A stretch of DNA of 64,000 nucleotides from Solicoccozyma terricola. Lineage: Eukaryota; Basidiomycota; Tremellomycetes; Filobasidiales; Piskurozymaceae. The number at the start of each line of letters is the position of its first letter. The stretch's first letter is position 1. The stretch lies in the NCBI GenBank assembly GCA_001600875.1, contig BCLD01000018.1:1-64000 (forward strand), in the 5' to 3' direction. This document shows, piece after piece, positions 13,321-55,213 of this stretch. The position numbers were made by a program, and so were the translations under genes. The notes below the pieces were generated by a model. That model had not been told where the DNA came from. It worked only from the letters and a program-made list of their open reading frames with translations, and searched no databases.

Positions 13321-13374
<54 letters not shown>

Positions 13375-34344: not shown

Positions 34345-36913
34345 TCACTTTGTAGTGACAGGAAGGACAGTCCCAAAGACATAATCCCACATCTTGGAAG
34401 TAACGCCGAAACCGAGCTCGAAGTCTGTTGGAAAAAAGTGGGGGGTCAACAATGATTGCATAAAAAAAGGCACACGGACGATCTAAACGCACTCTTGTAA
34501 TGATGTGCGAGATGGTATTTTTTCATTTCGGTGAGGTACTGAGGGAGCTTCGTGTGATGCAATGCGTAGTGCATGCAATCGTACAGGATGTCTGGATTGG
34601 GAAATCATGTCAGTCTGCGATCGCACATCTAACGAATGAAGTCACGAGCAACTCACAGAAAGTGTACGCGCCTGCAATGATGCCGTTAGCGATTGCTTTG
34701 GGGAAGAGAAGATGTCCGAGCTGGGTGAAGGGGTAGGAAAGGATGAAGAAAAGAGTGGGTGGCATGACGAGACGAAGTCTGAGAGAAAGTGGACACGCAC
34801 AAGCCCAACCATCAGCCAAGTCTTCTAGAAATCAACGCCACCAGCCACCACTCACTTATCCATAGGCAGGTAGTGATGAATACCATGCAACAAGAAGTGC
34901 AGCGTCAACGCTATGTTGTTATCCGGTAACGCGTTATCGATATGGAACAAGAATCGATGAAGGGTGTATTCGAGGATGGTCCATATGATACAGCCGGAGA
35001 GGTAGCATATGAGAAAACCGGCGAAAGCGGCGATTGTTGGTTGAGGGAGTTGAGAACCGATGGTCAGAGATTTGAGGAGGTTCGCGGCGGTGACGGTGCT
35101 GTACGCGTGGAAAAAATTGATGGTGGCTGTGAGCAATAGCCAAAAGGGGAATCGCACAACACCGAGAACTCACCGATCAGAAAATTGCAAGATCGAAAGT
35201 ACACCGAGGAACATCGTGATCGGACCCCAAAACATAGGCACGACATACCACTTTGTCCTCGTCAAAACCTCCATCACATCCGGACCGAATAACCGAGCTG
35301 AATCTTTGACATGACGCGGTTGATGGACTTGTTCGAGGTAGAATTCCTTGCTGAAATTCCCAAACAATATTTGGGTCAACAACGGCTTTTCCAGGTCCAA
35401 GAACCTCGATCTTGTGAAATCAGCGAGTGTGTCGGTATTCTCGGGATGAAAGTCGTCCGTGGGGATCCAGTCTGCGAGGGACAGGGTGAGGGGTGACGCA
35501 TGGGCGTGAGCGTTCGTTCTCGATCGTACTGCTCGCTTGGGACACAATCGTATGAGAATGGGTGCCCTCGTTTCACTCGCAGAGAAAGCCTGATGCTCGC
35601 TGCATTCGCAGAGACAACAGAGAAATGCTCGCTACACTTGCACCAGGGAATAGTCTTCGTCCCGCGAAAGAGAAACGCTCGCTACGTTCGAAGACACAAC
35701 AGAGTTTTGCCTCTCACGCTCGCTACCGGTTGCAACAGGCAATAGTCTTCGTTCCACAAAAGAGCAATGCTCGCCTCATCCGCAGAGACAGAAGAGTATT
35801 GCTCGCTACACTTGCAACAAGCAACAGCATTCTTCGCGCGAAGCAACGAGATGAAGGTTCGCTCTCTTCGCAAAGAAATGAGCCTTCACTCCGACAAAGA
35901 AAGACCAGTGGTCTGTGCTGCACGGAGAACTGAGTATTCGCTCCGTTCAAAAGACAGTAATTCTTGCGCGACGGAGAAATGAGTACTAGCTTTGCTCGCG
36001 CAGGCATAAACCTCACTCCGGTCAAGAAGACAGAAATGAGATGAAGGTTCGCTCTCTTCGCGAAGAAAGAAGACTTTATTCCGCTGAAGAGCACAGCAGT
36101 CTTTACTGCGCGAAGGATTGAGATGAAGGTTCGCTCTCTTCGCGAAGAAAGAAGACTTTATTCCGCTCAGAAAAGGAATAGTCTTTGCTGCACAAAAGAG
36201 TTAAACACTCGCTCCGCTCAGGAAGACAATAGTCTCCTAGTGCGCGAAGATATGAGTGCTCGCTCTGCTCAGAAAGCGAGTAGTGCCCAAAGAGTTTCCT
36301 GCGAAGGGAGAAGAATTGTATGCTCGCTTCGCTCGCGAAGAAATGAGTGCTCTCTATGCTCGCGAAGAAATAATGCTCGCTACGCTCGCGGAAGAAGAGC
36401 TCCCTAGCGGGAGCATGGTCTTCGTTCCGCGAAGAGATGTATGCTCGCTCCGCTCGCGAAGAAATGTATGCTCGCTTCGCTCGCGAAGAGATGTATGCTC
36501 GCTCCGCTCGCGAAGAAAATGAGTGCTCGCTGCGCTCGCCGCTCGCCGCTCGACTCACCCTCACTAACCACCTTCTCCACACCTCCCAAACTCCCCACGG
36601 CAAACCCTTCCAACATCTCATACGCCGACTGGGAATGCACATGTTCCTTTTCATCCGCCATGACTTCCCCCAGATCCTTGCCTATGAACGGGAGGAGGAT
36701 ATCATCCCCTCCTGGATGATCAGCGAGGAATGAGGTGATGTCGTAGACGACACCACGACGGGATACCCATGCGGATGATGTGATGTTGTCTGTAGGAGGG
36801 GTGCGGGAGGGGGTGATTAGTGAGTCGATGCGTTGGAAGGGTCAACCAAACGGATGGAACATACGACGCGCGACATCTGCTGCTGCGTAGATGCGGGATT
36901 TGGTAGGAGCCAT
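34345..36913 (-). CDS. SCS7: Fatty acid 2-hydroxylase (Scs7/FA2H) with cytochrome b5 domain
   Basis: An ER enzyme that 2-hydroxylates very-long-chain fatty acids of sphingolipids. Minus strand. Start 36913 (MAPTKSRIYAAADVARR). Cytochrome b5 domain: WVSRRGVVYDITSFL with HPGGDDILLPF (heme His). Then a very large intron (36558-35472) holding the palindromic array. Next: DWIPTDDFHPENTDTL, RSRFLDLEKPLLTQI and membrane helices (WYVVPMFWGPITMFLGVL; FLICYLSGCIIWTILEY). Hydroxylase di-iron His motifs: EYTLHRFLFH, HFLLHGIHHYLPMD, HYALHH, and the final HHYKN|FELGFGVTSKMWD. Stop at 34345. The last splice, AAG A|AC TTC, rebuilds the conserved motif. Confidence 0.93.
35548..36552 (-). repeat. Intronic palindromic repeat array (Scs7-like gene)
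   Basis: About 1 kb of degenerate tandem modules in the sense (minus) strand of the host gene, consensus CTTCGCGAGCGAAGCGAGCA followed by a CTCAT-like spacer. The first copies begin directly after the splice donor GTGAGT (36558-36553). The array is most regular near the donor (36360-36550) and decays towards the acceptor. A GGGAGCTCTTC / CATGCTCCC module (36395-36420) is shared with the arrays at 53040-53070 and 53590-53615. Confidence 0.9.
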
Positions 36914-37325
36914 GGTGGGTGGGTACGGCTTCTGTGTGGAAACTAGAACAGATGAGGAGGAAGGAAGCCAAGGGAGTGAAGGTGGTGGCTACGATGTAAG
37001 ATGATTGCTGTTGATGTTGTAAAAGCTGTCCACCTGTCCCGATGACCACCTCCCTCCTCGTCTCTTCGGTGGCAAAAAATCGAAAACAATGGGAAAATCC
37101 CGATGACTAATCAGAAATTTGATCCCGCCATGCTCGCGGGTTCGGGGTGGCGAATCCGGGTAAATTGAGGAACGGGCACACACCGCGGATTGCCGGGGAG
37201 GGGGCGGGGGGAGGGGCGGGGGGNGGGGCCGGGGTTACCAAGCAATGCCGGGCGAAGTCCATACGATCCCACCCACCCCTCCCGGTGAACATGCATAGCT
37301 TCCATCCACCCACATACCTGCATTT

Positions 37326-37630
37326 AAAGCATCAACAGTTAACCGTGTGGGTGATTATGATATGTTCCCAAGTGTTGGAATTCTTTGCAATCCTTCTGGG
37401 TATTCGGAAATGTATTGGATTATGCTACATTATTCAGTATTGCACCATATATTAACGAAAACAGCTATCACAAGTTTATTGGACTATTACTTCTATTAGG
37501 AGCAAACTCCCAAATCGACCCAATTAGGACTGCACACTTGGTTACCTTACTTGATGTTTCGATCTTCTCCTATTATTTGAATATGGACCAACTACTCTAG
37601 TAGTAGTTACTTGACTAGGTGCGCTTACCC
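37326..37630 (+). pseudogene. NUMT: nuclear insertion of mitochondrial nad5
   Basis: An AT-rich block in the promoter region between the Scs7-like and Ero1 genes. Pieces of NADH dehydrogenase subunit 5 can be read in shifted frames: STVNRVGDYD (37329 on), FWVFGNVLDYATLFSIAPYI with NEN (37388 on), QLGLHTWLP (about 37520-37548), and RSSPII / EYGPTTLVVVT (about 37563-37613). The last segment reads through a TGA where nad5 has Trp, as in the fungal mitochondrial code. Frameshifts and a missing middle part show it is a dead copy. Limits are approximate. Confidence 0.8.
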
Positions 37631-37789
37631 CTTGACTTACGCTTACAGGTGTTTCCGTCTCGACCATCCACGTTATCATAAACAGTCTGAAATCTCCATA
37701 TTAATTATAAATTAACCATCCCCCCGATTCACAAGTTTTATCTTGATGGTAAAGAGTGCTATATCCTCGTCGTGTTACTAGTCCTACCT

Positions 37790-37833
37790 TATCTTGATTT
37801 TGGACAAGATTATATCCAAAATCAGACAAGATA
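37790..37833. repeat. Imperfect hairpin in AT-rich spacer
   Basis: TATCTTGATTTTGGA is followed after 10 nt by TCCAAAATCAGACAAGATA, its reverse complement apart from a small insertion. It lies downstream of the NUMT in the Ero1 upstream region. Role unknown. Confidence 0.6.
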
Positions 37834-38140
37834 TTTGCTTTGAGTTGATGACGTGGTTACAAGTGAGTAAGTTTTTTTAATAACCTGACAGGTCTATTCT
37901 CATAGTTATAGGGTTTGAAACTGACCCTTGTCATACCTGACCATATGATGCTGTGCTCCCTCCCGTCATCGCCACCCCCGCCACCGGTTGTCACGTGACC
38001 AACCCCGCTCCAACTCCACTCTTTGGTCATCCTCCACGCATCAGACCGTACACTGTCCACCGTCCACCACTACCTCCTGCTGCTGCTGCTGCTGACACCG
38101 CCCACCACCCTACTCACCCTACTCACCCTTCTACCCATCC

Positions 38141-40352
38141 ATGCACTCCCTCTCAGCACTCTCATGGCTTATCCTACTGCCAGCTTCAGCCATCTCCAAC
38201 GTCATATCCGATTACGCGGATAGCAAAATCGCAGAGAGTGTACTGGAGAGTAAAGGGGAAGGGTATTGTAGTGTGAGTTGAGGGGTTGGGTGGGGGCTAC
38301 GACTTTAATTAAATCGCACACTCGCTGATAATACACAACCCGGATTGTCCTCTTGTCATGATCCATAGCCATCTGGACCGATCGAAAACACATTGTGCGC
38401 TTATGAAACAGTAGAAAGTTTGAACAAGGAATTATATCCCGCGTTACATGATCTTGTACAAGGTGATTTCTTTCGACATTACAAGGTGGGTCCGGGGAGG
38501 GGGTTGGGGTGGGGTAGAGCGTCTTTCCCATGATCCCGCGGCCAACTATGACGTTTGGAAGCTGAATAACGAATACGAATTTTGGATTTTATTTCACTTT
38601 TCCGTAATCCTTAGGTCGATCTGTTTAGAGAATGTCCGTTTTGGTATGAGAATGGATTTTGTATGAATCGGGATTGTGGTGTAGAAACGGCGGATGAGGT
38701 GAGGGCTTTTTCTTTTTCCTGGTTTCAGATCCTTCTGCTACCGTCTACACACTTCGTGACCACTCACCCCCATTCACACATTCACACACACAATAGTCCG
38801 AGATACCGGAAAAATGGAGAGCAAAAACATTAAGTCAAGTTCATATAGATGAAGATGGAGTGAGTTTTCAACCACCGTCATCATGCACCAACTCGCACTT
38901 CCTAATTCCCCGTAAAACCCCCCAACCAAAACCCCACACCCACCACCCCCAAACAGGCACTACCAGGTTGCGACCTCCACTCCCAAGATTTCTGCTACAC
39001 CGACTCTGAATCCTCTTCCGAAGGTTCATACGTAGATCTCATACTCAACCCCGAACGATTCACAGGATACGCAGGTGCATCTGCACATCGAGTATGGCGT
39101 GCGATTTACGAGGAGAATTGTTTTGGATTGAGTGAGAGGTTTGAGATGGGAGCCGGGAGTGCAGGGACGGGTGGGTTAATGTCGGGGAATGGAGGGATGG
39201 CTCTGCAAGAAGGGTTCGGGCAGTTGAAGAAGGGAAGGGAGGAGGAGTGTGTTGAAAAAAGGATTTATTATAGGATTATATCGGGTATGTGGACGCCCCC
39301 GGGGGGGGGGGGGGGGGGGGGTTCCCAATGCTTTGNNNNNNNNNNNNNNNNNNNNNNNNNNNNNNNNNNNNNNNNNNNNNNNNNNNNNNNNNNNNNNNNN
39401 NNNNNNNNNNNNNNNNNNNNNNNNNNNNNNNNNNNNNNNNNNNNNNNNNNNNNNNNNNNNNNNNNNNNNNNNNNNNNNNNNNNNNNNNNNNNNNNNNNNN
39501 NNNNNNNNNNNNNNNNNNNNNNNNNNNNNNNNNNNNNNNNNNNNNNNNNNNNNNNNNNNNNNNNNNNNNNNNNNNNNNNNNNNNNNNNNNNNNNNNNNNN
39601 NNNNNNNNNNNNNNNNNNNNNNNNNNNNNNNNNNNNNNNNNNNNNNNNNNNNNNNNNNNNNNNNNNNNNNNNNNNNNNNNNNNNNNNNNNNNNNNNNNNN
39701 NNNNNNNNNNNNNNNNNNNNNNNNNNNNNNNNNNNNNNNNGACAAGGCGTTTGAGTGGGTAGACATGGTGTTGTTTCCCGCGTCGTCGTATCACCACTGA
39801 CATGCTAAACCCCCCCCCCCCCCCCCCCCCCCCCCGCGGCCCCCTCGCAGTCCCAAAATTAACCCAAACCTCCTCCAAAGATCCGAAATTGTCGCTCTGT
39901 TCAACACCCTGCATCGAATGAGCGAGAGTCTGGATGCGATCGAGACATTCAGACGGATGTACAGCGAGGCTCAAAAGGCAGATTTGCAGCGATTAGAGGA
40001 GAGCAGATCTCCGTCCGTTGATATGGTAGGTCCAACCGTTTTGATGATACTTCCCCCCGTCGTGCGAACGAGCGCGCTGAACACGCACGCATTCTACCAG
40101 ACTGAACCGACCAAATCAGCCAAACGACGACCGAGAAAGAAAGCCACAAGGGATCAATCGAGCACGTCACGAGCGATGGACGACATTCGACACCGGTTCT
40201 CCGCGTTCAAGCTAGAATGTCAACATTCCTTGTTGTCATGTTACAAGCACATCGAGGGCCCGCTTGGTTTCCTACTCGATGTGGTATGGTCGGTCGGCGC
40301 GTTGATCACGTCGTGGGTTGGTACCGGGGGGGAAGGGAAGGGGGATTTGTAG
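38141..40352 (+). CDS. ERO1: Ero1, ER thiol oxidase, interrupted by an N gap
   Basis: An FAD enzyme that oxidises protein disulfide isomerase in the ER. Start 38141 gives a signal peptide (MHSLSALSWLILLPASAIS). Blocks in order: YADSKIAESVLESKGEGYC, ETVESLNKELYPALHDLVQG, VDLFRECPFWYENGFCMNRD leading to CGVE, EIPEKWR, GCDLHSQDFCYTD, YVDLILNPERFTGYAGASAH followed by RVWRAIYEENCFG, and KRIYYRIISG. Then an intron runs into the gap (39336-39740). After the gap come EIVALFNTLHRMSESLDAIE and the C terminus ending GGEGKGDL. The missing exons, including the CVGCDKCRLWGKLQ motif, are at 51904-52479. As assembled here the gene is incomplete. Confidence 0.93.
39336..39740. other. N gap inside the Ero1 gene
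   Basis: 405 unresolved bases. The left edge follows a G run (39301-39321) and TTCCCAATGCTTTG; the right edge starts in an Ero1 exon (GACAAGGCGTTTGA). Comparison with 51851-52536 implies the true missing stretch is about 601 bases. Confidence 0.95.
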
Positions 40353-40477
40353 ATGTAGCCGCGGGCGGGGGGTAGAAATTTTGTATACTGTATCCATTAC
40401 CTGCATGCTGGGCATCCACATATTACACCACCAACGGTGAGAACGATTTTCGTTGGCCATCGTGGATTCTACGATTT

Positions 40478-42090
40478 TCATTTCTTCATAATGGCTAATA
40501 CAGTCAATCCTACTGTCACACCGCCGCCTAGGAATCCAGCTAGCAGTCCGGAGAGTATGAGGTTTCTATCTTGCGGTGTATTCATTCCGCCGGTGTCTAG
40601 TATGATGGCGGGTATTCGAGAGATAGCATACGATACGGAGGACGTCCATCCTCGTGTTATTTGCTCTGGCTGCGGAGTGGTATCCTCCAGTGGTGTATGG
40701 GAAATGTCCCCTACCGCCGCCGCCTCCCCCTCCTTCTCCTGCGCACCAGCCAAAGACCCCCTCAGCTCGACCATTGTCCGATCGATCTTGTCCATTTCAC
40801 CTCCAATCCTCTGTTCAATCCTTTCTTCTACATCGTTCATCAACCCTACCACTCTCTCCTCCAATCCACGTACCAACCTCTTCCTTTTCCACGGTTCAAC
40901 CACGACGATCGCGCCGAGAAATACAACGAGATTGACCAACACGACTGCCAAACTTCCATACGTCGATACACTCCGTATCTTGTCACTCCAAACTTGCTCT
41001 TCGTGATATCGTTCGAGAATACCCTTCATCAACGCATCGAAAGCTTGTTCTACCGCTAATTCCACTTCGACGAGTGCGAGTTTACATTGACTGACAGCGA
41101 GGTTTGACGCGTGGTCAGCGCGGACGAGGGATGTGAATGATGAGACGTCGGCGTCTGTCCATGTGTGTTTCCGTTCGAGGAGGGAGGTGACGGCGCGTTG
41201 AGAGTCGGATCGAGCGTTGACGGCGGTGTCGTACGCTTCTTTCGCTTTTCGAGCGGATTGCCGGAGGCGAGAGAGTTCGGATTCTGGCGTGGGTGGGGGG
41301 GGNGGGGGNGGGGAAAGGTAGAGTGAGTTGGAGGGGATGGAAGGAGATTGCTCGCTGCACTCGCGGAAGGCTTGCGAGCGAACCAGACGAGGTGCGAAGA
41401 CAGAAGAGATGAATGCTCGCTTCGCTCGCGAAGAGATGAATGCTCGCTATGCTCGCAAGACAATAGTCTTCGCGAAGCGAAGACTGAAGAGGTGAATGCT
41501 CGCTTCGCTCGCGAAGAGCTAAATGCTCGCTATGCTCGCAAGACAATAGTCTTCGCTCCGCGAAGACAGAAGAGATGAATGCTCGCTCCGCTCGCGAAGA
41601 CACGAGTGCTCGCTACGCTCGCGAAGACAGAAAAGAAGAACGCTCGCTCCGCTCGCGGAGACGAGTGCTCGCTTCGCTCGCGAAGAGAAGGATGCTCGCT
41701 CCGCTCGCACTCACCCTTCTCCACCACTTTCCCCTTCAACACCTCTACCTCTTTATACCCCGTTACCTCATTAATCCTACCTCCCAACCTTCCCAACCTT
41801 TTCCCTGCTCTACTCCCAATATCCACCACTCTAGCTGAGAAATGTGTTCGTATTTGTGCGAGTTGAAGTTGAAGTTGTGCAATGTGTGTGTCTAGTCGAC
41901 GTTGTATTGAGCGGGTGTTTGTGTGTGGTGGTTGTGTTGGTTGTGGTGGTGGTGTTGGTGTTGGTGGTATTGGTGGAACATGTTCGGTAGAGGTAGACGC
42001 CTGAGTGAATGAACGACTGGACGATGTGATGCAATACGATACCCTATGTGATCGTAACCGTGATGAAGAAGCAGCTACCGAGCGATGCAT
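40478..42090 (-). CDS. SHE9: She9/Mdm33-family mitochondrial inner-membrane protein
   Basis: Involved in inner-membrane morphology/fission. Two exons on the minus strand: 42090-41715 and 41283-40478, joined as EKG|AA TCC (E-S-E-L-S-R-L). The N terminus (MHRSVAASSSRLRSHRVSY) is a mitochondrial targeting sequence, followed by a Pro/Thr linker and the start of a coiled coil (DTHIAQLQLQLAQIRTHF). Family core: GYKEVEVLKGKVVE, HTWTDADVSSFTSLVRADHA, ILERYHEEQVWSDKIRSVST followed by YGSLAVV. A transmembrane helix is in VVLVNLVVFLGAIVVV; a second hydrophobic segment near the C terminus is LLAGFLGGGVTVGLTVLAI. The intron holds a palindromic array. Confidence 0.9.
41348..41708 (-). repeat. Intronic palindromic repeat array (She9 gene)
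   Basis: Within the 431-nt intron (41714-41284). In sense orientation the donor GTGAGT runs directly into GCGAGCGGAGCGAGCA, then copies of CTTCGCGAGCGAAGCGAGCA alternate with a hairpin module GTCTTCGCGGAGCGAAGACT and a TTGCGAGCATAGCGAGCA module. The best copies are at 41405-41430, 41570-41605 and 41655-41709. The acceptor side of the intron is a G run with ambiguous bases. Confidence 0.9.
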
Positions 42091-42291
42091 GGTGGGGGTG
42101 GGGGGATGGGGGGTGGTCGGAGTATGGCCCTTGACTGAGTGGAAGGTGATTCAACTTAGGGAGAGTGGGAGGGAGGGGAGGGGGAGTGGAGGAATGACAC
42201 GTCATGGAGATGATACCGTGACATGTCATGGAGCGATGTGATAACGGTGAACCACGTGATCCCAGCCCACCGCCCCACCTGCCACGTCATT

Positions 42292-42328
<37 letters not shown>

Positions 42329-42513
42329 CCACCCCGCCACCCCCCGATCACGTGCCCCGCCCCCCATTGCAAATTCCCAGCGGCGAGATTGCCCATCCCG
42401 CTATTATCACATATCCAACTGCCCGCCCATCTCCATCTCACACAAGTCCCGGTGGTGACTCACTCCTCTCGCTTGGTTGGTCTGGATTCTCACTTCAACC
42501 TATCACCACACAT
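42091..42513. promoter_or_regulatory. Divergent She9/bZIP promoter with poly-C and ACGT-core sites
   Basis: Holds a 35-base C run (42293-42327) and several ACGT-core elements: TGACACGTCA (42195-42204), CCACGTGATC (about 42253), CCACGTCATT (about 42282) and GATCACGTGC (about 42347). Such sites are typical bZIP or bHLH targets, so self-regulation of the downstream bZIP gene is possible. Sites are seen; binding is inferred. Confidence 0.4.
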
Positions 42514-45144: not shown

Positions 45145-45780
45145 TGGGTGACGGAAGGGGGTTTTGGTTCTGTGCGTTTCGGTATTCTTGGACGTTGTAT
45201 TGGGATGTTAGATGTTATGGATATTACGTTGCTAGAGACATTCACGACCGGCTTTCAGGATGACAGTTACAGACAAGCCCTGGCAGATCCCGCCCCAGTC
45301 ATCTTCATGCTCAGTCAGCTCCTTGTGGATTTTTTTTTTGGTCAAAACGTTTTGTGCGGCGGTTGAGCGCATTTTTATATTGAGTTGCATGACAGGACGA
45401 CAGCGAAAGAAAGGTTTACAAGGACGACTAAAGATCAAACGACGCCTTTGCACTCCTTTCCATCTCCGCCCGTGGGATGAGTCTAAGGGACAATCTAATT
45501 GGTACAAGGTAAGGGTCACGAAAGCACGGAATAAGAGATGGGGGGGGCACGCTCTCGAAGATGAGCCTTCTGTTGGGGAGGTGTTGCAGGAGAGGGAGTC
45601 GGTGGTGGTAGGGGGTTATGTTTCGTTCGACCAGATCGTGGATGCAGGAGAGTAGTCCATTGGGCGCTCGAAACCGGAGAGAATTAGAAAAGGAAAAAAG
45701 TCTACACAAGGCCCGGGAGAATTTGAGAATTTGAGGATGCGTGTGAGGGAGAAGATGGAAAAAAATGCAGGAGGGGAAAT

Positions 45781-45825
<45 letters not shown>

Positions 45826-45958
45826 TGTTTGAAGCATGCGAGGAGGAGCTCGCATCAGGGACCGCATGAGGCTGGTATCCCTAGCGACGTATCATCGGGG
45901 TCGTAAAAAAAAAAAAGAGGGGATCAAAAAGACCGAGACGGGGGTTGGGAAACGCCGT
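45145..45958. other. Convergent intergenic region with poly-G
   Basis: Between the bZIP gene and the SAM synthetase stop. Contains a 41-base G run (45783-45823). An unassigned 131-codon frame (45260-45655) has no recognised domain and is not called. Confidence 0.45.
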
Positions 45959-47689
45959 CTAGTACTTGAGGGTCTTTGGTTTCTCCCAAGTGTAGTCGGG
46001 GTTACCTGAGAAACGGCGGACGAGATTAGCTTGATTAAATTTAATAATAAAAACCGCCACGCCCAGCCCTGACTCACCAAAGTGACCGTACGAAGCAGTC
46101 TTCAAGTACTGGGGCTTCTGCAAGTCCAACTCCTTGACGATAACTCCTGGCCTTAAATCCCAGTTCGCACGGATGATATCGACCATCTGAGCGTCTGAGA
46201 TTTTCCCAGTCCCATACGAGTCAACAAAGATTGAAAGAGGTTCAGCTACACCGATAGCGTATGAAAGTTGAACTAAAACACGATGAGCTAGACCGGCGTT
46301 TACGAGAGATTTTGCGATCCAACGAGCGGTGTATGCTGCTGATCTATCAACTTTTGAAAAGTCCTTTCCGGAGAATGCACCACCACCGTGAGCACCCCAA
46401 CCACCATAAGTGTCGACGATGATCTTTCGACCTGTCAACCCGGCGTCACCCTGAGGACCACCGATGACGAATCGACCGGATGGTTGGATATGGTAAACGG
46501 TCCTCTCATCGAGTAAATCGGCACTGATAACCTTGTTGATGATTTTCTCCTTGATTTGTTTCCTGAGGTCGTCGGTGGTGATCTCCTCTGCGTGTTGAGT
46601 TGAGATGACGATGGTGTCTACCCTCAATGGGATCATAGCACCGGTTTCGGGATCCTTCTTGTACTCGATGGTGACCTGAGTCTTGGAATCGGGTCGGAGC
46701 CATCCCATTGAACCATCTCGACGAGCGGCGGCCATAGCAGAGTTGAGTTTGTGAGCGAGCATGATTGTTTTCGGCATGAGCTCGGGGGTCTGTGTGGGGG
46801 TGGGGGTGGGGGAAGGTGTTAGAATATGTTCGCGGCGTCGTTGTGAGAGGGCGATTTACATCGCCCTTCTCCCCACTCCCACCCCCCACTCACCTCATCG
46901 GTTGCGTAACCAAACATGATACCTTGATCACCAGCACCGTGGTTCTCCAAATCTCCATCATTGACCAAACCCTGAGCGATATCCGGTGATTGTTGCTCAA
47001 TAGCTACCAAAACATTACAAGTTTTATAATCAAAACCCTTTTCTGAAGAATCGTATCCGATTTGTTTGATTGTATCACGAATAACTTTTTGATAGTCGAT
47101 TCTAGCCTTTGTGGTGATTTCACCGAAAACCATTATCATACCGGTCTTGGCGGCTGTTTCGCAGGCAACCTTGGAGTTGGGGTCTTCAGCGAGACAAGCG
47201 TCGAGGATTGCATCGGAGACTTGATCACAGATCTTGTCTGGAGGGGTGGAGGTGGGGGGGGTGGGAGTGGGGAGTGGGGAGTAGGAGGGAGAGATGGTGG
47301 GAAGGAAAGAAGAAGCCGAGTAGGGAAGAAACGAACGAACGAGGGAGGAAATACGAGCGAAGAGGACAAACACGTGTATCAGTCTTCGAGTGGTTCGATG
47401 AACGACAGCACGACATTACCGCTCCCTGGACTCACCTGGGTGACCCTCTCCGACAGACTCGGAAGTGAAGAGGAAGCTGTTCGTGGGTAAGGAAGAAGAT
47501 GATAGCAGTGTCAGCCCATGAAGCACTCTCAGAGGACCAACGATCCGTGTGTGGTACGAGGGGGAAAAAAAAAAGAAAAGACTGGGGGGCGGGGGGGACG
47601 CGATGTGTGGGTCCAACTCACTGGCCTGGTGCGAGGACATGGGCAGCACCGTTTGCAGTGCCGTTTGCGGTGGTGATTGAAGCGGTCAT
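45959..47689 (-). CDS. S-adenosylmethionine synthetase
   Basis: Makes S-adenosylmethionine from methionine and ATP in the cytosol. Five exons on the minus strand. Start 47689 ([20 protein letters not shown]). Motifs: [19 protein letters not shown] (ATP/Mg site, joined over an intron), [35 protein letters not shown], the methionine-loop region, [40 protein letters not shown] (P-loop-like), and the end [19 protein letters not shown]. Family residues appear complete and length is normal (about 395). The last intron is unusually T/A-rich (46000-46075). Confidence 0.95.
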
Positions 47690-48101
47690 GGTGAGTGAGT
47701 GTAGAGTGTGGGTGGGGGGAGGGGGGGTTGTGGTTGTGGTTGTGGTTGTGGTTGTGGATGATGTGGATGTGGATTGTGTGTCGACCCGTTCTTTGCCTGT
47801 TCTTCCCAAATAACGTGCTTGCGCCACAATTTTTTTTTATTTTTTTTATTTTTTTTGGATTTTTTGGATTTTGAGTTCGGGCGGATGGCGACTTCCGGGT
47901 GGCGAAGAGGACGGAGGAGGTGGTGGTGACGACGGGGGGGTAGGGGGCGATGGTGGGATGGGATGGAGGGGAGGACCATGGACCATCAGACCATCAGACC
48001 ATCAGACCATCAATCCACCAATCCACCAATCCCATCAGTGTCAAACATCATTGCATTGTCCATTTCAGCACCATATACATTCATCCCCGCCACCCCACCC
48101 G

Positions 48102-51100
48102 CTAAATACCGTTCAATCGCATCCCATCCCTCATCATCATATTCGCTTTACCAGCTCCACCTCCCAACACCACCACCGCAGCTTCCTTCCTCCTTCTCAA
48201 CTCCCCAATCACATTCTTCAACTCGCTCACCATCTCCCCACTTCTATCCTTCGACGACGACGACGACGACGGGCCCTCGGGTGCTTGATTCTCCACGTCG
48301 CTCGCAATTCGTTCTCTTGCCGCTCGCATCGCTTTAATTCGCTCATCCCGAGCAAGTTTCCGACCATCAGTGGTAACACCTTTCGCAGCAGATCTTACAC
48401 AAGTAGCTTCAAACACCGCTTCGAGACCAGGAGGTGGTAAAAACGCAGGTGAAGTCGAATCCAATAGGTATTTAGACGCGTCGTCCGCACTCGTATCGTC
48501 CGTATCCGGTAGATCCTTGTCTACATGTTGAGATGGAGTCGATGTAATCGATGGTGTTTCGTTCCAATCGTCGAGAAACGCAGGAATGTCCGGCATATTC
48601 GAGAAATTCTCTTCCTCCCCCTCTTCCGCCTCTTCCACCTCCGAGTCATGTTCATGTTCCATCATCGCACGTTCCATTCCCATCATCCGATTTATAACCA
48701 ACCTCCCACGTTCCCAATCCCCAATCATGCCTCCAATATCACCCCTCACGAGTTGCCATCGTTCAGGAAGATGACTATTCAAAGCATCCGAGACGTTTTG
48801 CACTCTAATCGCTTGAATCCGTCGTTCGACTTGCGAGAGGTGATCAAGTAACGCATTCATATGATCGTCGAGTAAAACCTTGTCAGCGGTTCGTGGTGCA
48901 AAATTGTCGTATTCCGGGATATGACCTCCTTCAGCCACCGTGCGACGGACGGTGGGACCAGGACCAACTTTAGAACGCACTTCACCAACCACCACCTCCA
49001 GATCCTCCCTTGACACCTTCAACTCCCCTTGTAGATCATCCAACAACACATGCACATTCGCCCAATACCTCGCAATCTCAACCTCATCCAGTCTCCCAGA
49101 ACGTACCAAATCCCAACTCGCTTGAGAATCACCAACAGCGGTAGCCGGCGGTGGGTTGTTGAATTGTAAAGCCAACAGGCAACACACAGCCTCACGACGT
49201 TTACGATGCATGGCGAAAAAGCTAGCCTTTAGACCTGCAGCGGTGAGAGGGTGGTCCATGGACGCGGCGGTATCAGAACCGGCACCAGGACGTCGTCGTG
49301 TAGATTGGCCAACGTTCTCGCTTCGGAAACTATTACCCCTCGAGAGGGAGGGCTTCGGGGATGGGGCGGCGGCGGCGGCGGCGAGATTCCGGGCGTTTGG
49401 TACGCTGTGAGAGGGTAAATGACCGTGCCTTCGTCCCGGTAGGGAACTAGCTCGACTGAGGGAAACTTGTGGATCCCGTTCCAGATCCAGATAAAGTGGC
49501 ACATCGAGATTCATAGACAGTGGTCGTCCTCCTTCCCTGAAGCCGTTGAATGGACCTGGCAAGCGCCGCTGGTATCCAGTATCTTGCAGACTGCGGCGTT
49601 TACGTTGGCGGTCTTCCGCCGCCGCTGATCTCGAGATCGGCGCACCATTTTCGACGCCGCCAGCCACAGCCGAGAACCCGGTGATGCCAGATTGCGACAA
49701 CCTCAGCTCCCTCAACTTGTGAGTCGGTCGTGGTGGTGACGACGTGGGCATGATATCCGACGCATCATCCACCGAGGAGAAGGATAGTCGAGATCCCTTG
49801 AAGGACTCTCTCGATAGCGATTGAAAACCCAGCGCCGTCGTGTCCTCGACATCATCCCGTTCCTCTGTGACGGTAGATGGCCAGCGTGTGGTCTTTCCCG
49901 GTCGAGATGGAGTCCCGTAGCTTGGCAGAGCCCCGATCGTTGGACGTTCCCACATCGACGGAGAGGCTGGAGATGGTGAAGCGATCCTGCGTTCGTGCCA
50001 GCTCGCTCGTTGACCGGGTAGCGGACTTCGTCGAGGGAGCGGAGTAAGTCTGTCCTCGGTCGGGGATAGCAAATTCGCCCCAGGGAAATGTGACATCGAT
50101 TGGGAGAGTCGGATATGTCTCGTATCGGCGTCGGCGGAATCGAAGGGCGAGAAGGGATATGAAGTCGCAGGATTGTATCCCTTCGACCAAGTTGAGGAAA
50201 TCGATCTCGTCGGAGGACTACTCATCGAGAGGTTTGAGAAACTCTCAAATGCGTTCCCTTGCTCGTCTAGGGGCGTTTCAAACCCGCCAAGTAGTTGACC
50301 ATCGTTGTCATCCTGTACCGGCGACATGGCTCCGAGGACCAACCTCATCTCGTCGATCCCGTACATCTCCGCTAGACCAGCAAGCTCAGTCTCGCTCGCA
50401 AGAGGGAGAAGAGACGCCGTCGCCGAAGAAATTCGATCTGAGAGGGATTTCAGTATACCATCTAGACGTTCTCGAAGGGACGAGGTTGCGATAGTTGATT
50501 CCGAGCTGTTGGTAAGATTAGGGGCCGAATCAGATCAGGGTCGGGTGTGGAGGGATCATCTCTCTTTTCTGCGAGCACCCACCTCGTGTTCTCCTCCAAC
50601 AATCTCAACCCCATCCCAATCTGCTCATCCAATTGATCGCTTTGCAAGATGAACGCATCCAACGACATCAACGCCATAGCTTGTAAACTTTCCTGCTCGG
50701 CTGCATTCCTCTTGATCGTTTCTTCTCGTGCCTTTTTCTCCGCCTCCCTCTCTTCCCTCTTCCTCCTACCGCGCTGTACTCTCTCCTCGCCGACGAAGCC
50801 TACCAATGTGGCACAAAACATGATCGTCAACGCCGTCACCACTTCTATCCAAATCCATCCTACAATCCGCCAAACCCCACCGATGGTAACCAACGTGGCC
50901 AGGAAGACATCGATGCGATCCCATGGTGCTGTGCGTGATAGATGGGTGAGGGATGTGATGTATGAAGATGATGATGTTGATGAATATGATCTTGGGCGAG
51001 TAGTCGTCGTCGCCGTCTTCCTACCCTCCGCAATCACAACTCCGCCATCACCACCACCACCACCATCCCTCAATCCAACACTAGTCTTTGGCGCAACATC

Positions 51101-51805
51101 CAACAACCCAGATGAGCATATTTTCCACCTGAATCGTTCCTCGAAGGCTGGCGGTAGATCTTGTTTCGCGTCTGACGATGACATGGTGAATGTGGACGAT
51201 GATCGTGGAGGTGACATGGAACGTGATCGGCCTCGGAGGGAGGGTAAGAATGGGATGGCAGCGATGGCGGGGATGGCGGAGACGAGGTGGGTTGGACGTG
51301 ATGAGGAAATTGATGTCGAGGTGAGGTTGGTCTGTGATGCCGTGCATGGACCACTGGTGTTTAGCGCCCAGCCCTCGAGGAACACCAAACACACACACAC
51401 ACATACCTTCCAAGTCTCTGGTAGAGTATCCAAAAACCTACTCCACATCCCTCCGGCAGCAACGTCAAGTCCTTCTTCACCCTCAATTCCACCCACGCTT
51501 CCAACTGAACCTATTTCTTCTCCCGCATCATCATCGCTTCTATCCATCGTTCTCCCACGACCCCACGTTGATTCATCCCCCAACATCAACGCAGCAGGAC
51601 CCACGATTCCTCTTCTCCTCTGTCGTCGTTTCCATTCCTTGGACGTCGTTTCATCTACGTTGGGAAGTCGGGACGTCGTGGGAAGAGGAGTATCATCGTT
51701 TTCTGATAATTGTTCATCGATGTCGGTGTGTAGGTGCTCTTCATCCGTGTATGAGTCTGGATCTTGAGGTGGATCATCCATGTCGAGGTACGCTTCACCT
51801 TCCAT
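48102..51805 (-). CDS. Large membrane and coiled-coil protein, possibly vezatin-like
   Basis: Not firmly recognised. Start 51805 (MEGEAYLDMDDP), acidic N terminus, intron about 51407-51334 with a GT repeat, two adjacent hydrophobic segments (IDVFLATLVTIGGVWRIVGW; IEVVTALTIMFCATLVGFVG), then a charged coil and LDAFILQSDQLDEQIGMGLR leading to LLEENTR. A second intron (about 50581-50502) joins to SSESTIATSSLRERLDGILK, and a long exon (to 48102) with a Ser/Pro-rich middle, a helical repeat-like region (AAGLKASFFAMHRKRREAVC and on), and a C-terminal SGEMVSELKNVIGELRRRKE. Two membrane helices followed by a helix of the MSLDAF..GLRLLEE kind recall fungal vezatin/Inp2-like myosin-binding proteins; this is a tentative comparison. 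The 5' flank is lost at a G run (51816). Confidence 0.55.
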
Positions 51806-51815
51806 GAGATCTGAT

Positions 51816-51853
<38 letters not shown>

Positions 51854-52533
51854 CCCAATGCTTTGAGTATTCCGATGAAGAATTGGCTAATTCCTCCGCC
51901 TTTTGGATTCCTTCTTTCTAGGTCTTCACGCTTCTATTAGTATACATATATGCCACGATTACCTAGATCAAACCACTGGTGAATGGGTGAGTTTTACTCC
52001 ACCCCACCTGTCATTACCTCCCCCGCTCAACCCTCCCTCCACACAGCACCCCAACCTCCAATGCTTCATCACACGTCTCGCATCCCACCCCGAACGTCTC
52101 TCCAACGTCTACTTCAACACCGTCCTCCTCCTCCGTGCGATCGCACGCGCCGAACCCTACCTCCGCGCATACGACATTGAAACCGCGAAATCCCAAACTG
52201 ACATCTTGCGGATCCAAGCTGATCGAGTCGTCAAACAGGATATGGACACCGTGTTGAATCTAGCCAAGATGAGTGGGATGAAAGCGTTTGATGAAAAGGC
52301 CCTGTTTAGAGGTCCGGATGCGACGAGTCTTCGTCAAGAGTTTAAATATAACTTTAGAAACGTCTCGAGGATATTGGATTGTGTCGGGTGTGACAAGTGT
52401 AGGTTGTGGGGGAAATTGCAAGTATCGGGTCTAGGTACCGCCCTCAAGATCCTGTTCGAGTTGGATGACAAGGCGTTTGAGTGGGTAGACATGGTGTTGT
52501 TTCCCGCGTCGTCGTATCACCACTGACATGCTA

Positions 52534-52570
<37 letters not shown>
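51816..52570 (+). other. ERO1: Misplaced Ero1 gene fragment (fills gap at 39336-39740)
   Basis: Starts in a G run followed by TTCCCAATGCTTTG (identical to 39321-39335) and ends with 70 bases identical to 39741-39810 plus a C run. Between them lie the intron acceptor and the missing Ero1 exons: LHASISIHICHDYLDQTTGE, LQCFITRLASHPERLSNVYF, the DIETAKSQTDILR region, FKYNFRNVSRILDC and CVGCDKCRLWGKLQVSGLGT, with TALKILFELDDKAFE at the end. Placed in the gap it restores the frame at both splice junctions. It is best explained as a contig inserted at the wrong place through homopolymer joins, not a second gene. Confidence 0.88.
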
Positions 52571-52638
52571 NNNNNNNNNNNNNNNNNNNNNNNNNNNNNN
52601 NNNNNNNNNNNNNNNNNNNNNNNNNNNNNNNNNNNNNN
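52571..52638. other. N gap
   Basis: 68 unresolved bases directly after a C run. Sequence belonging to the 3' part of the following minus-strand gene is missing here. Confidence 0.95.
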
Positions 52639-53152
52639 GAACCGTAGTTTCGTTAACACAAGGACGGCGGTAGCTGAGACGAAGAGTAGGTCGATGAGGA
52701 GCCAGAGGAAAAGGAATTGAACATTCTCCCTGATATTTCCCCATTCTCCGCTGTATCCTCACTCCGTTCATTTCATTATTCTTCGCTATGCTCGCAAGAC
52801 AATTGTCTTCGCTTCGCGAAGAAAGACAGAAGAGACGAGTGCTCGCCATGCTCGCAAGACAATTGTCTTTGCTCCGCGAAGACAGAAGAGATGAGTGCTC
52901 GCTTCGCTCGCGAAGACTGGAGACATTAGTGCTCGCTATGCTCGCAAGACAATAGTCTTCGCTCCGCGAAGACAGAAGAAATGAGTGCTCGCTTCGCTCG
53001 CGAAGACAGAAGGCATGAATGCTCGCTTCGCTCGCGGAAGAGCTCCCTGACGGGGAGCATGGTCTTCGCTCCGCGAAGACTGAAGACGTTCTCTCCCGGT
53101 ACTCACCTCTCAAATACGCGTGATCGACCTGCATGTTGTGTAGTTGATCCAT
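52639..53152 (-). CDS. Small membrane protein, 5' part only
   Basis: Not recognised. Exon 1 is 53152-53107 (MDQLHNMQVDHAYLR), then a 361-nt intron (53106-52746) with a palindromic array, then exon 2 (52745 to the gap at 52638). Using the acceptor CGGAG|AATGG gives REWGNIRENVQFLFLWLLID followed by LLFVSATAVLVLTKLRF, a strong membrane helix; the alternative acceptor ATACAG reaches a stop quickly. The remaining exons are lost in the gap. The gene is divergent from SAR1. Confidence 0.55.
52777..53090 (-). repeat. Intronic palindromic repeat array (small membrane protein gene)
   Basis: In sense orientation the donor GTGAGTACCGGGAGAGAACG is followed by GTCTTCGCGGAGCGAAGACC (8-bp hairpin arms), CATGCTCCCC...GGGAGCTCTTC, then copies of CTTCGCGAGCGAAGCGAGCA with CTCAT-type spacers and TTGCGAGCATAGCGAGCA modules. 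It makes up most of the 361-nt first intron. Confidence 0.9.
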
Positions 53153-53348
53153 TCTGATGGTGTTATATGGTGCGTGCGTGCATGCATGATATACGGATGG
53201 GGATGGGGTGTTGTTGACATTTTGTTGACAAGCGCGGGTGCAAGTGAGTCCGGTGGCGGTGGCGGGGTGAGTCACGTGAAACGGCCTGAATGACACGTGA
53301 TAGCCCAGTGGCAACTCTCCACCCGGGGGTCACCGTGAGAATGGAATA

Positions 53349-53414
<66 letters not shown>

Positions 53415-53540
53415 CCCCCTCACTCCACCTCCCCAGCTTCGCCTATTGCTCCTTCAACGTCGACAGAGACGTCATTCGATCGTGGCGACCGATCAGCAAT
53501 CAAACCAAAGCAGTGAATCAAACGTCTACATCGTCTCGTC
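53153..53540. promoter_or_regulatory. Divergent promoter with 61-base poly-C
   Basis: Shared upstream region of the small membrane protein gene and SAR1. It contains a C run (53351-53411) and two CACGTGA motifs (about 53271 and 53294). Both flanking genes carry a palindromic array in their first intron. Confidence 0.45.
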
Positions 53541-55213
53541 ATGTTTATTATTGTAAGTGTTTCATCTCGTTCGTCTTTGCGGAGCGAAAGATCATGCTCC
53601 CGTTAGGGAGCTCTTCTTCCCTGAGCGTAGCGAGCACTACTCTTCTCTGCGAACGGAGTGAGCTATACTCACTCCGCGAACGTAGTGAGCTATACTCTGT
53701 GCGAGTGTGTCGAGCGAGACTTTGCGAGCACATCGAGCAATACTCTCTTCAAACATAGCGAGCTATACTCCTCATTCTCCCTACTCTCCGTTCTTTGCTA
53801 CGGCGCACGCCTTAACTTTTGAACCTCCAACATGATGAAGAACCCTCTAGAGCAATCGCTGACGTCCCACGGGTACCTTTCCTATCCCACCCTACCTACC
53901 TCACAGAATTGGTTCTGGGATGTCCTCGCCTCATTAGGTCTAGCGAACAAGAGTCAGTAAACAAATTCCAAATAAAAATCCCACCGTGGTACTTTCTCTT
54001 CCCAAAACGTCCGCATCAATCTTGATTCGATGGAATTGAATGTGTTTTATTTTTTCTTTTTGGGATCATTTCCCAAACGCGCAGATGCAAAGATCCTCTT
54101 CCTTGGATTGGATAACGCCGGTAAAACTGTACGTCCAAGTAATTCTTCGTTCAACCGGGATTCCTCTACCCGTGGCCCCCGCGGGGGTCGGGAAATACAA
54201 CACACTAATCGTCATCGCGATATCCCCCCTTTTAGACCCTTCTCCATATGCTCAAAAATGAACGATTAGCAACTCTTCAACCGACTTTACATCCGAGTGC
54301 GTTGTCAACCCCCACCCCCCCCGGGGCGCCCTTCATCGTTCGCTCTGGAAAGATGGGAATTGACCACTCTTGACTTCTGGATATCGTTTTACCCCCCAAA
54401 AAAAACACACAGCTTCGGAGGAACTTGCGATTGGGAATATCAAGTTTACTACATACGATCTTGGTGGTCATCAACAGGGTGAGTCATTTTGTCCCCTTTC
54501 AACTCCAGCGGGAACACATGATTTTTCATCGGAAACTGAATCCCTTTTCTCATCCTTCCCCCCCCCCCCCACAGCTCGTCGTCTATGGCGTGATTATTTC
54601 CCAGAAGTGGACGGTATCGTCTTTCTAGTTGATAGCGCCGACATTGAGCGATTCGGTGAAACAAAGGCCGAATTAGATTCCTTGTGTGAGTGGTGTAACG
54701 CCTCTTGCCGTTTACAAACTCGAAATTGAACCGATTTGTTTTATGTTTTTTTGTGGGGGGTTGGGGGATTTTGTTTTTTGCTTTTTTCGGCGAATAGTGT
54801 CGATCGAATCTCTGTCTACCGTTCCCTTCCTTATTCTTGGGAATAAGATCGATGCTCAAGGTGCAGTAAGTGAGGAGGAACTGAGGCATCAATTAGGATT
54901 ATATCAAACCACCGGAAAGGTGAATACTCTCTCCCTTTCTCCTATTTCTCCACTTAGGAAATTGAATATTCTGACCATTTATTGACGCGTTTTTTTTTGC
55001 GTTTCGTCGTATTAACCAGGGGAAAATCCCACTCACGGATATTAGACCAATCGAGGTTTTCATGTGTTCAGTCGTCATGAGACAAGGTTACGGTGAAGGA
55101 TTCAGGTGGTTGTCTCAATATGTGAGCATTCAGCCTTTGCATTTTCTAAAGTGGCGGGTGTGCTGATAAACCGGGAGGGGGGTTTTCCTTTTCGCTTCCT
55201 TGAACAGGTCTAG
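53541..55213 (+). CDS. SAR1: Sar1 COPII small GTPase
   Basis: An Arf-family GTPase that starts COPII vesicle budding at ER exit sites. Exon 1 is only 12 nt (MFII, 53541-53552). Intron 1 (53553-53906) holds a palindromic array. Exon 2 (53907-53952) gives [15 protein letters not shown], the membrane-inserting N terminus typical of Sar1. Later exons: [12 protein letters not shown] (P-loop; 54085-54128), [20 protein letters not shown] (54236-54297), [20 protein letters not shown] (54413-54478; switch II DLGGH), [38 protein letters not shown] (NKID) and [20 protein letters not shown]. The last coding exon is just GTC TAG (55208-55213). Complete and intact. Confidence 0.95.
53562..53775 (+). repeat. 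Intronic palindromic repeat array (SAR1 gene)
   Basis: Begins about 10-20 nt after the donor GTAAGTGTTTCATCTCG. First module TCTTTGCGGAGCGAAAGATC, CATGCTCCCGTTAGGGAGCT, then diverged copies of the GAGCGTAGCGAGCAYTACTC / GCGAACGTAGTGAGCTATAC type. Orientation is sense to SAR1, the same as in the other three hosts. More diverged than the arrays at 41.5 and 52.9 kb. Confidence 0.85.

Follow-up and report, generated by a model that had tools for sequence, protein, structure and literature searches.

The 64,000-nucleotide (nt) window analysed here (bases 1-64000 of contig C18, BCLD01000018.1, of the Solicoccozyma terricola genome, which comprises 23.89 Mb in 33 contigs) carries four intronic arrays of a family of 15-nt repeat units. 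In the sampled part of the genome, the arrays lie in introns, preferentially first introns, run in the sense of transcription and start close behind the 5' splice site (the donor). Their units are intact beside the donor and decayed toward the acceptor, and the unit itself is constrained in a manner that fits a hairpin. The predicted fold, which is restricted to the sense strand, and the polarity of the arrays are two new features. We tentatively explain them by growth of the arrays at their donor end.

The 15-nt core CTTCGCGAGCGAAGC occurs 11 times in the window at no more than one mismatch (0.00 expected, 100 shuffles). A k-mer scan called arrays at 35530-36550 (-), 41349-41708 (-), 52758-53086 (-) and 53561-53770 (+), and no fifth array anywhere in the window. 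The arrays, their host introns and examples of the repeated modules are as follows (U is one of the forms of the unit; C and H are accompanying hairpin modules).

35472..36558, minus strand: oversized intron of an Scs7-like gene, 1087 nt, predicted rank 2, donor at 36558 (gene finder)
35530..36550, minus strand: hairpin-unit array in the Scs7-like intron, intact by the donor (36.55 kb) and decayed toward the acceptor (array scan, gene model)
41284..41714, minus strand: oversized first intron, 431 nt, of a gene labelled She9 in the preliminary description (gene finder)
41349..41708, minus strand: array in the She9-labelled gene, its first unit directly abutting the 6-nt donor, tandem period 83 (array scan)
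41666..41685, minus strand: example of the full 20-mer core, containing the U unit GCGAGCGAAGCGAGC, predicted mini-hairpin with a GNA loop (pattern search, folding)
52746..53106, minus strand: first intron of a small gene, ATG at 53152, donor at 53106, acceptor approximate (direct reading)
52758..53086, minus strand: array in the first intron of the small gene, tandem period 90 (array scan)
53062..53077, minus strand: H module, TTCGC-GGA-GCGAAGAC, stem with a GNA loop (pattern search)
53553..53906, plus strand: first intron, 354 nt, of a gene labelled Sar1 in the preliminary description, ATG at 53541, 12-nt first exon (direct reading)
53561..53770, plus strand: array in the Sar1-labelled intron, sense to its own gene and on the opposite strand to the neighbouring array (array scan)
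53593..53611, plus strand: C module, CATGCTCCC-GTTA-GGGAGC, stem with a GNNA loop (pattern search)

The preliminary description, made from the letters of the window, had reported four oversized introns filled by one repeat family. This observation is confirmed: the 1087- and 431-nt introns were returned exactly by our gene finder, direct reading agrees with the start of the 354-nt Sar1 intron at 53553 and with the donor of the small gene at 53106, and arrays of one family, with a core far beyond chance, occupy the four places. Its figure of about 55 nt for a typical intron gives way to a median of 78 nt in the gene models (275 introns of at most 160 nt), and its interpretation is partly supported, as described below. 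The small gene was missed by the gene finder and its acceptor is uncertain (near 52746-52752); the stretch at 52-53 kb was mis-modelled because of a misplaced ERO1-like fragment nearby. In the joined protein of the Scs7-like gene, Cyt-b5 and FA_hydroxylase domains (Pfam) flank the intron junction, one on each side, and the closest species-named relative among the matches listed is the Naganishia albida protein (73% identity), followed by those of other Tremellomycetes.

Genome-wide, the unit GCGARCGNAGYGAGC was found in 807 copies, against 16 for a reversed-letter control, and further patterns gave 110 (CTTCGCGAGCGWAGCGAGCA), 33 (the CATGCTCCC...GGGAGC module), 95 (TTCGCGGAGCGAAGAC) and 8 matches (the G variant). 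Extrapolating from contig C1, where 25 clusters of GCGARCGNAGYGAGC lie in 2.43 Mb, we estimate that about 250 arrays with an intact unit exist in the genome. The starting set consisted of 236 pattern matches forming 114 same-strand clusters in 103 regions (100 of the 110 CTTCGCGAGCGWAGCGAGCA matches were listed); 50 clusters lay inside the fetched loci and the window, and 20 of the 59 stretches left were then fetched, with 39 left unread. The resulting sample of 63 regions and 251,984 bases, window included, thus represents sites picked by intact motifs, with no random control regions in it, and arrays were called throughout by k-mer scan. A scan of viral contigs for the core, which may omit records very near this genome, gave no match.

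Eighty-one arrays were called in this sample of 252 kb. According to the gene finder, a self-trained two-strand model of our own to which array positions but not intron ends were supplied, 68 lie in introns in sense orientation, 3 in introns in antisense orientation and 9 outside genes, and 1 is partly exonic. Models without the special array cost (flat long-intron cost, same training) gave 67 or 62 sense versus 3 antisense arrays and placed 10 or 15 outside genes. One of the three antisense calls, C18:52758 (contig and position), is a gene-model error; the other two, C6:337865 and C6:966382, are antisense by eye too and lie in predicted introns, the latter beside a poly-G run. Among the 9 arrays outside gene models, 8 have a donor-like GT upstream by eye, the exception being C11:454175. 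The latter array (C11:454175-454393) has no visible donor and directly follows a poly-C/poly-G junction that may hide lost sequence. Without recourse to a gene model, GTRAGT was found at most 60 nt upstream of 61 of the 81 arrays, on the mirror side of 4 of the 81 and at a background of 4.6%, and a whole-genome search for a donor followed by a unit within 30 nt yielded 60 matches (57 distinct donors), compared with 5 for the reversed unit.

The same strand preference is seen in single units. The 56 scored sense-array introns contain 209 perfect sense units and no perfect antisense unit. Exons (95,036 nt) contain 0 sense and 3 antisense units at no more than two mismatches, and 275 ordinary introns (23,643 nt) contain 0 sense and 5 antisense units at no more than three; at this last threshold the array introns (30,612 nt) gave 4 antisense matches, so that false matches are rare. 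In the preliminary description, copies were confined to introns, shared one orientation relative to transcription and began near the donor. All three statements are supported in the sampled part of the genome, qualified by the two antisense-looking arrays on C6 and the donorless array on C11. An equal spread over intronic and intergenic sites, or over both orientations, which had been named as the pattern that would speak against the idea, was not seen in this motif-selected sample.

The hosts look nuclear. Seven host proteins were submitted to Pfam out of 40 well-scored gene models, and all seven contained domains (condensin subunit 2, NmrA-like, glycosyl hydrolase 31, acyl-CoA oxidase, TAF6, TCP-1 chaperonin and the Scs7-like hydroxylase). 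In 5 of the 7 a single domain match bridges the array junction, and therefore at least those five are real genes with an intron at that position. The genes for condensin subunit 2, the TCP-1 chaperonin, TAF6 and acyl-CoA oxidase are nuclear. Two arrays were found in different introns of one gene model in three instances (C1:552279 and 552785; C6:905719 and 906349; C2:1423501 and 1424341, the C2 model being weak with a score of 1).

Intron statistics, from which introns of genes scoring <20 and array-free introns of >160 nt were left out, place the arrays near the 5' ends of genes. Of 45 genes with two or more introns, 29 have an array in intron 1 (11.5 expected, standard deviation 2.8), and in 48 of 51 genes an array occupies intron 1 or 2; the median genomic distance from ATG to donor is 269 nt for array introns versus 1095 nt for ordinary introns. 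Among the matches listed, nine pairs of neighbouring clusters lie on opposite strands less than 3 kb apart, and all nine are divergent; two further listed opposite-strand pairs represent a single inverted hairpin within one array on C15.

Within the intron, the first module starts a median of 28 nt past the donor and the last ends a median of 132 nt ahead of the acceptor, and the array ends on the 3' side are ragged and decayed. The donor itself is GTGAGT in 43 of 56 array introns versus 119 of 275 ordinary introns (p 4e-6), and donor hexamers, as well as the length and sequence of the spacers between donor and first unit, vary among array introns. In the 56 array introns, the first 57 nt after the donor hexamer have a mean pairwise score of 13.6; on the acceptor side (the last 57 nt before the final three) the score is 8.1 versus 7.5 for shuffled sequences, with maxima of 23 and 26. 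Adjacency to the donor proves little by itself, because any insertion into a 78-nt intron falls near the donor. Plain insertion into short introns was set aside as a complete answer, since polarity persists in arrays of 300-500 nt. Duplication including the exon end was also rejected, with none of the 56 introns carrying the last 12 nt of the exon at one mismatch or fewer. The D form of the unit contains GTGAGC, which is the donor hexamer of 16 of the 275 ordinary introns, and D units could for this reason serve as decoy or alternative donors.

Polarity was scored in the 37 of 56 sense-array introns that hold at least four units (260 units). From donor to acceptor, mean mismatches per unit by fifths of the array were 0.02, 0.08, 0.12, 0.58 and 1.59; the number rose toward the acceptor in all 32 arrays with variation, the first unit was perfect in 36 of the 37, and the mean within-array correlation was 0.78 (largest value in 2000 within-array shuffles, 0.27). 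When arrays were taken in the orientation of the element, without gene models, 41 were positive, none negative and 11 flat. The first H module was better than the last in 11 arrays, equal in 8 and worse in none; C modules showed no significant trend with position (2 better, 7 equal, 0 worse). Of 165 changes, 90 are transitions and 63 are at actual or possible CpG sites.

Two measures of position could be separated. In the zone 300-600 nt behind the donor, mean mismatches are 0.97 for the final two units of an array (n=30) and 0.09 for units three or more places from its end (n=11). The partial rank correlation between mismatches and the distance separating a unit from the far end of its array is -0.25 (p 1e-4). 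Because mid-distance units are intact unless near the array end and the partial effects of both measures persist, age or turnover along the array is favoured over a rule of donor distance alone. Arrays also duplicate locally. Tandem periods of 27-92 nt differ among arrays, and the nearest spacer lies within the same array about ten times as often as expected in the donor half (26.4 versus 2.6, of 108) and in 25.3 versus 3.1 cases in the other half; close 40-nt matches were also found between different arrays. The earlier suggestion that the element expands from the 5' end of introns is thus backed by the polarity seen in the sampled part of the genome.

The unit reads G C G A R C G N A G Y G A G C, and its predicted fold joins positions 1-15 and 2-14, followed by tandem G.A and A.G, pairs 5-11 and 6-10, and a GNA loop. 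RNA parameters predict the structure ((..((...))..)) for the U unit, at -2.1 kcal/mol, and no fold for its complement. Palindromic repeats had previously been described, but the commonest unit is no plain palindrome and with these parameters folds on one strand only. Positions 5 and 11 covary in the sample (G-C in 185, A-T in 91 and anything else in 28 of 304 units), which fits pairing without proving it; genome-wide, 532 of the 807 units are U, 234 D and 41 mixed. In the donor half, all unit positions except 5, 8 and 11 are conserved at 0.99-1.00 and the flanks at 0.36-0.90. The loop centre, position 8, is free (T 53, A 36, G 17 and C 14, of 120). When the loop was left open in the search, 30 of 33 C modules had GNNA, and 25 of these had GTCA or GTTA.

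Mini-hairpin DNA with a GNA or GNNA loop and at least two G-C pairs is described as extraordinarily stable, GCGAAGC melting at 78 C (PMC4686876), and the U core GCGNAGC (532 copies) and the GTYA loop of the C module match loop classes set out in the excerpted text of that source. This structure is known as chemistry (PMC4686876) and is predicted here in a genomic repeat family. The inner stem of the D unit has one G-C pair only. RNA stability is a poorer explanation of the loops, because GTYA is not a GNRA loop, and RNA pairing is not visibly protected, since changes in the H stem that leave a G.T pair (22) and those that leave A.C (18) are about equal. We know of no other genomic repeat family built from GNA/GNNA mini-hairpins, although no search was aimed at this.

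Growth from exposed non-template DNA is proposed because the hairpin forms on the sense strand only and is expected to be especially stable as DNA; we consider it the most plausible explanation, with a probability somewhat short of even. The arrays would represent a nuclear family of single-strand mini-hairpins residing in spliceosomal introns near gene 5' ends. Each array would extend from its own 5' end (the end facing the splice donor in arrays of the usual orientation), so that fresh or newly copied units would arise beside the donor, and older units would be displaced downstream and then decay. The units may fold as very stable DNA hairpins on the exposed non-template strand, and cutting or copying at that edge would add units solely at that place and on that strand. 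New introns may be reached when a short piece of several units is copied. Beyond the predicted hairpin, the presence of R-loops in this fungus, the reaction by which arrays grow and the way they reach new introns are inferred. That the first 5' splice site acts as a transcription-coupled growth pole is a possibility that we advance with greater reserve. The arrays suggest a novel way of lengthening introns from the front end.

Several points weigh against growth at the donor end through DNA hairpins. Where the R-loop edge has been measured, in human data, the exposed strand lies 5' of the junction and not inside the intron. With RNA parameters the D unit reaches only -0.2 kcal/mol, whereas the rare mixed forms are predicted to be more stable, at -1.4 and -0.8 kcal/mol; this disfavours pairing as the cause of the covariation of positions 5 and 11, and the GC/AT pattern could go back to a single old event that a subfamily inherited. 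DNA parameters place all unit forms at 0.0 to -0.1 kcal/mol. DNA folding parameters may omit the special stability of GNA loops. Loop preferences appear weaker when perfect-stem hairpins in array introns are counted, GNA (mostly GGA) making up 48 of 74 triloops and GNNA 45 of 130 tetraloops, with 44 more of the 130 being CGAG from overlapping units. The higher proportions of GGA (61 of 64) and of GTCA or GTTA (39 of 50) come from search patterns that already contained these loops. The stability of the whole RNA was rejected as a cause, the first 250 nt folding at -87.6 kcal/mol in sense, -80.1 in antisense and -83.2 when shuffled (one shuffle per sequence); with DNA parameters the values are -40.9, -40.4 and -40.2 kcal/mol, respectively. 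When the distance to the far end is held constant, donor distance still has a partial effect on mismatches (0.19, p 0.0045). The two antisense-looking arrays decay 5' to 3' in their own orientation (0,0,0,0,0,0,1 mismatches in C6:337865-338132 and 0,0,2,3 in C6:966382-966645), so the polarity may belong to the 5' end of the element and not to the donor. Since close matches join different arrays, local duplication alone is insufficient and exchange or copying between introns must occur. The counts include at least 3 array introns, out of 56, whose models are visibly wrong. Finally, the constraint on the unit could instead mean a function for the host.

This last point leads to the alternative that survives best, although we regard it as unlikely, namely a functional RNA or DNA element: a factor bound to donor-near hairpins would aid the splicing or transcription of long 5'-proximal introns, and distal units would decay unselected. 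Sense orientation and first-intron position would follow directly from such a role, which would also agree with the far better conservation of donor-half units than of their surroundings, the partial effect of donor distance and the surplus of GTGAGT donors. However, units lying 300-600 nt past the donor are damaged only near the array end, H-stem changes leaving G.T and A.C are about equal, and only some 250 arrays with an intact unit are extrapolated for the genome.

Ordinary GC-rich minisatellites, arising anywhere and spared by selection in the free stretch behind the donor, have a rather small chance of being the answer. Local tandem duplication is indeed found, with periods that differ between arrays and roughly tenfold excess of same-array nearest spacers in the donor half, and the free stretch of a 78-nt intron is near the donor anyway. 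Minisatellites should nevertheless show no relation to gene strand, splice site or polarity, and the arrays show all three. The sense bias and the scarcity of intergenic arrays in the sample, the persistence of polarity in arrays of 300-500 nt, and the absence of sense units from exons and ordinary introns (0 sense and 3 antisense, and 0 sense and 5 antisense, respectively) are left unexplained.

A single-strand transposon, non-autonomous and integrating immediately 3' of a donor-like target (GTGAGT) where non-template DNA is exposed, with the newest copy next to the target as in IS200/IS605, would deliver fixed strand, donor adjacency and newest-first stacking together, and hairpin ends are typical of the IS200/IS605 class. 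We consider it improbable, because the genome has no match to the Y1 transposase (PF01797; the control matched in 5 of 14 genomes), neither the length nor the sequence of the spacer from donor to first unit is constant, and no sense unit occurs in 275 ordinary introns. Helitron_like_N (PF14214) also had no match in the genome, a blank that is uninformative because the control matched nowhere either. The strand-specific hairpins and insertion 3' of a short target of the IS200/IS605 and REP/BIME elements of bacteria resemble the present family; those elements are bacterial, whereas this family resides in eukaryotic introns and no Y1 transposase was found.

The copying of whole introns from gene to gene, as introners, or of an internal intron nested in the donor, as stwintrons, is very improbable. 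In its favour, dozens of the introns read have common sequence immediately after the donor, which is where [D1,2] stwintrons nest, and AG-TGAGC occurs within D units. Against it, the similarity is limited to the donor side, acceptor sides resembling each other hardly more than shuffled sequences do; array introns also differ in their donor hexamers and spacers, and an unscored reading of the units showed no branch-point-like consensus.

The family had also been called introner-like. Like introners and introner-like elements (PMC9860276, PMC4457414), it places shared sequence in many introns of unrelated genes of one species, at a position that matters relative to the splice site. Introners are, however, described as similar over the complete width of the intron (PMC12403724), and here only the donor-side array is shared; because whole-intron similarity is absent, the family is not an introner in the strict sense. 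Of the first eight groups with introners in PMC9860276, one fungal group, the Pezizomycotina, is named in the excerpted text. The [D1,2] stwintrons of Hypoxylaceae and Xylariaceae, as described in part of PMC12403724, likewise add sequence at the 5' donor of the host intron and propagate between genes, but they hold a complete internal intron where this family holds repeated 15-nt hairpin units.

Transposition as a miniature inverted-repeat transposable element, or by another cut-and-paste route, would predict no fixed strand relative to host genes and common intergenic copies, in contrast to the 68 sense, 3 antisense and 9 extragenic arrays among the 81. The family also resembles organellar repeats. 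The mitochondrial and plastid repeats of Volvox (PMC2670323), the GC clusters of yeast mitochondria (PMC4478555) and double-hairpin elements are, in the texts available, also short palindromic and presumably selfish hairpins in introns and intergenic DNA, and they merge into larger composites as the present family does. The Volvox repeats occur in both orientations with TAAA/TTTA loops (PMC2670323), whereas the arrays described here are locked to the transcribed strand, anchored at the donor and polar, have GNA/GNNA loops and lie in hosts that look nuclear, not organellar. In the open-licence literature, as judged by listings and with most subscription papers outside it, we found no description of such a family, no introner report for Tremellomycetes or Tremellales and no fungal first-intron hairpin array at a splice donor; a search on GNA loops gave nothing, and the papers listed for Naganishia introns with tandem repeats look unrelated.

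First-intron length and intron growth are old questions, and the family makes testable whether transcription directs the site and orientation of repeat growth. It brings together three subjects that are usually studied apart, namely hairpins of single-strand DNA, the edges of R-loops at the first splice site and the length of introns. By extrapolation, a compact fungal genome here offers some hundreds of strand-locked arrays whose state of decay allows the units to be put in order.

Other features of the window lie outside the arrays. A search of window positions 35400-54000 against Rfam gave 15 matches at E<=1, none of them within the four arrays. The ERO1-like gene (38141-40352, recognised by eye) is interrupted at about 39336-39741 by an N gap, which is preceded by a run of poly-G and followed by one of poly-C. 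The middle exons that the gene lacks are apparently located at about 51.9-52.5 kb (51816-52570), enclosed by a second pair of poly-G and poly-C and with identical ends, and the displacement is probably a scaffolding or gap-filling error. Poly-G/poly-C runs of 26-69 nt occur at window positions 13321, 39810, 42293, 45783, 51816, 52536 and 53351, and some of them adjoin N gaps.

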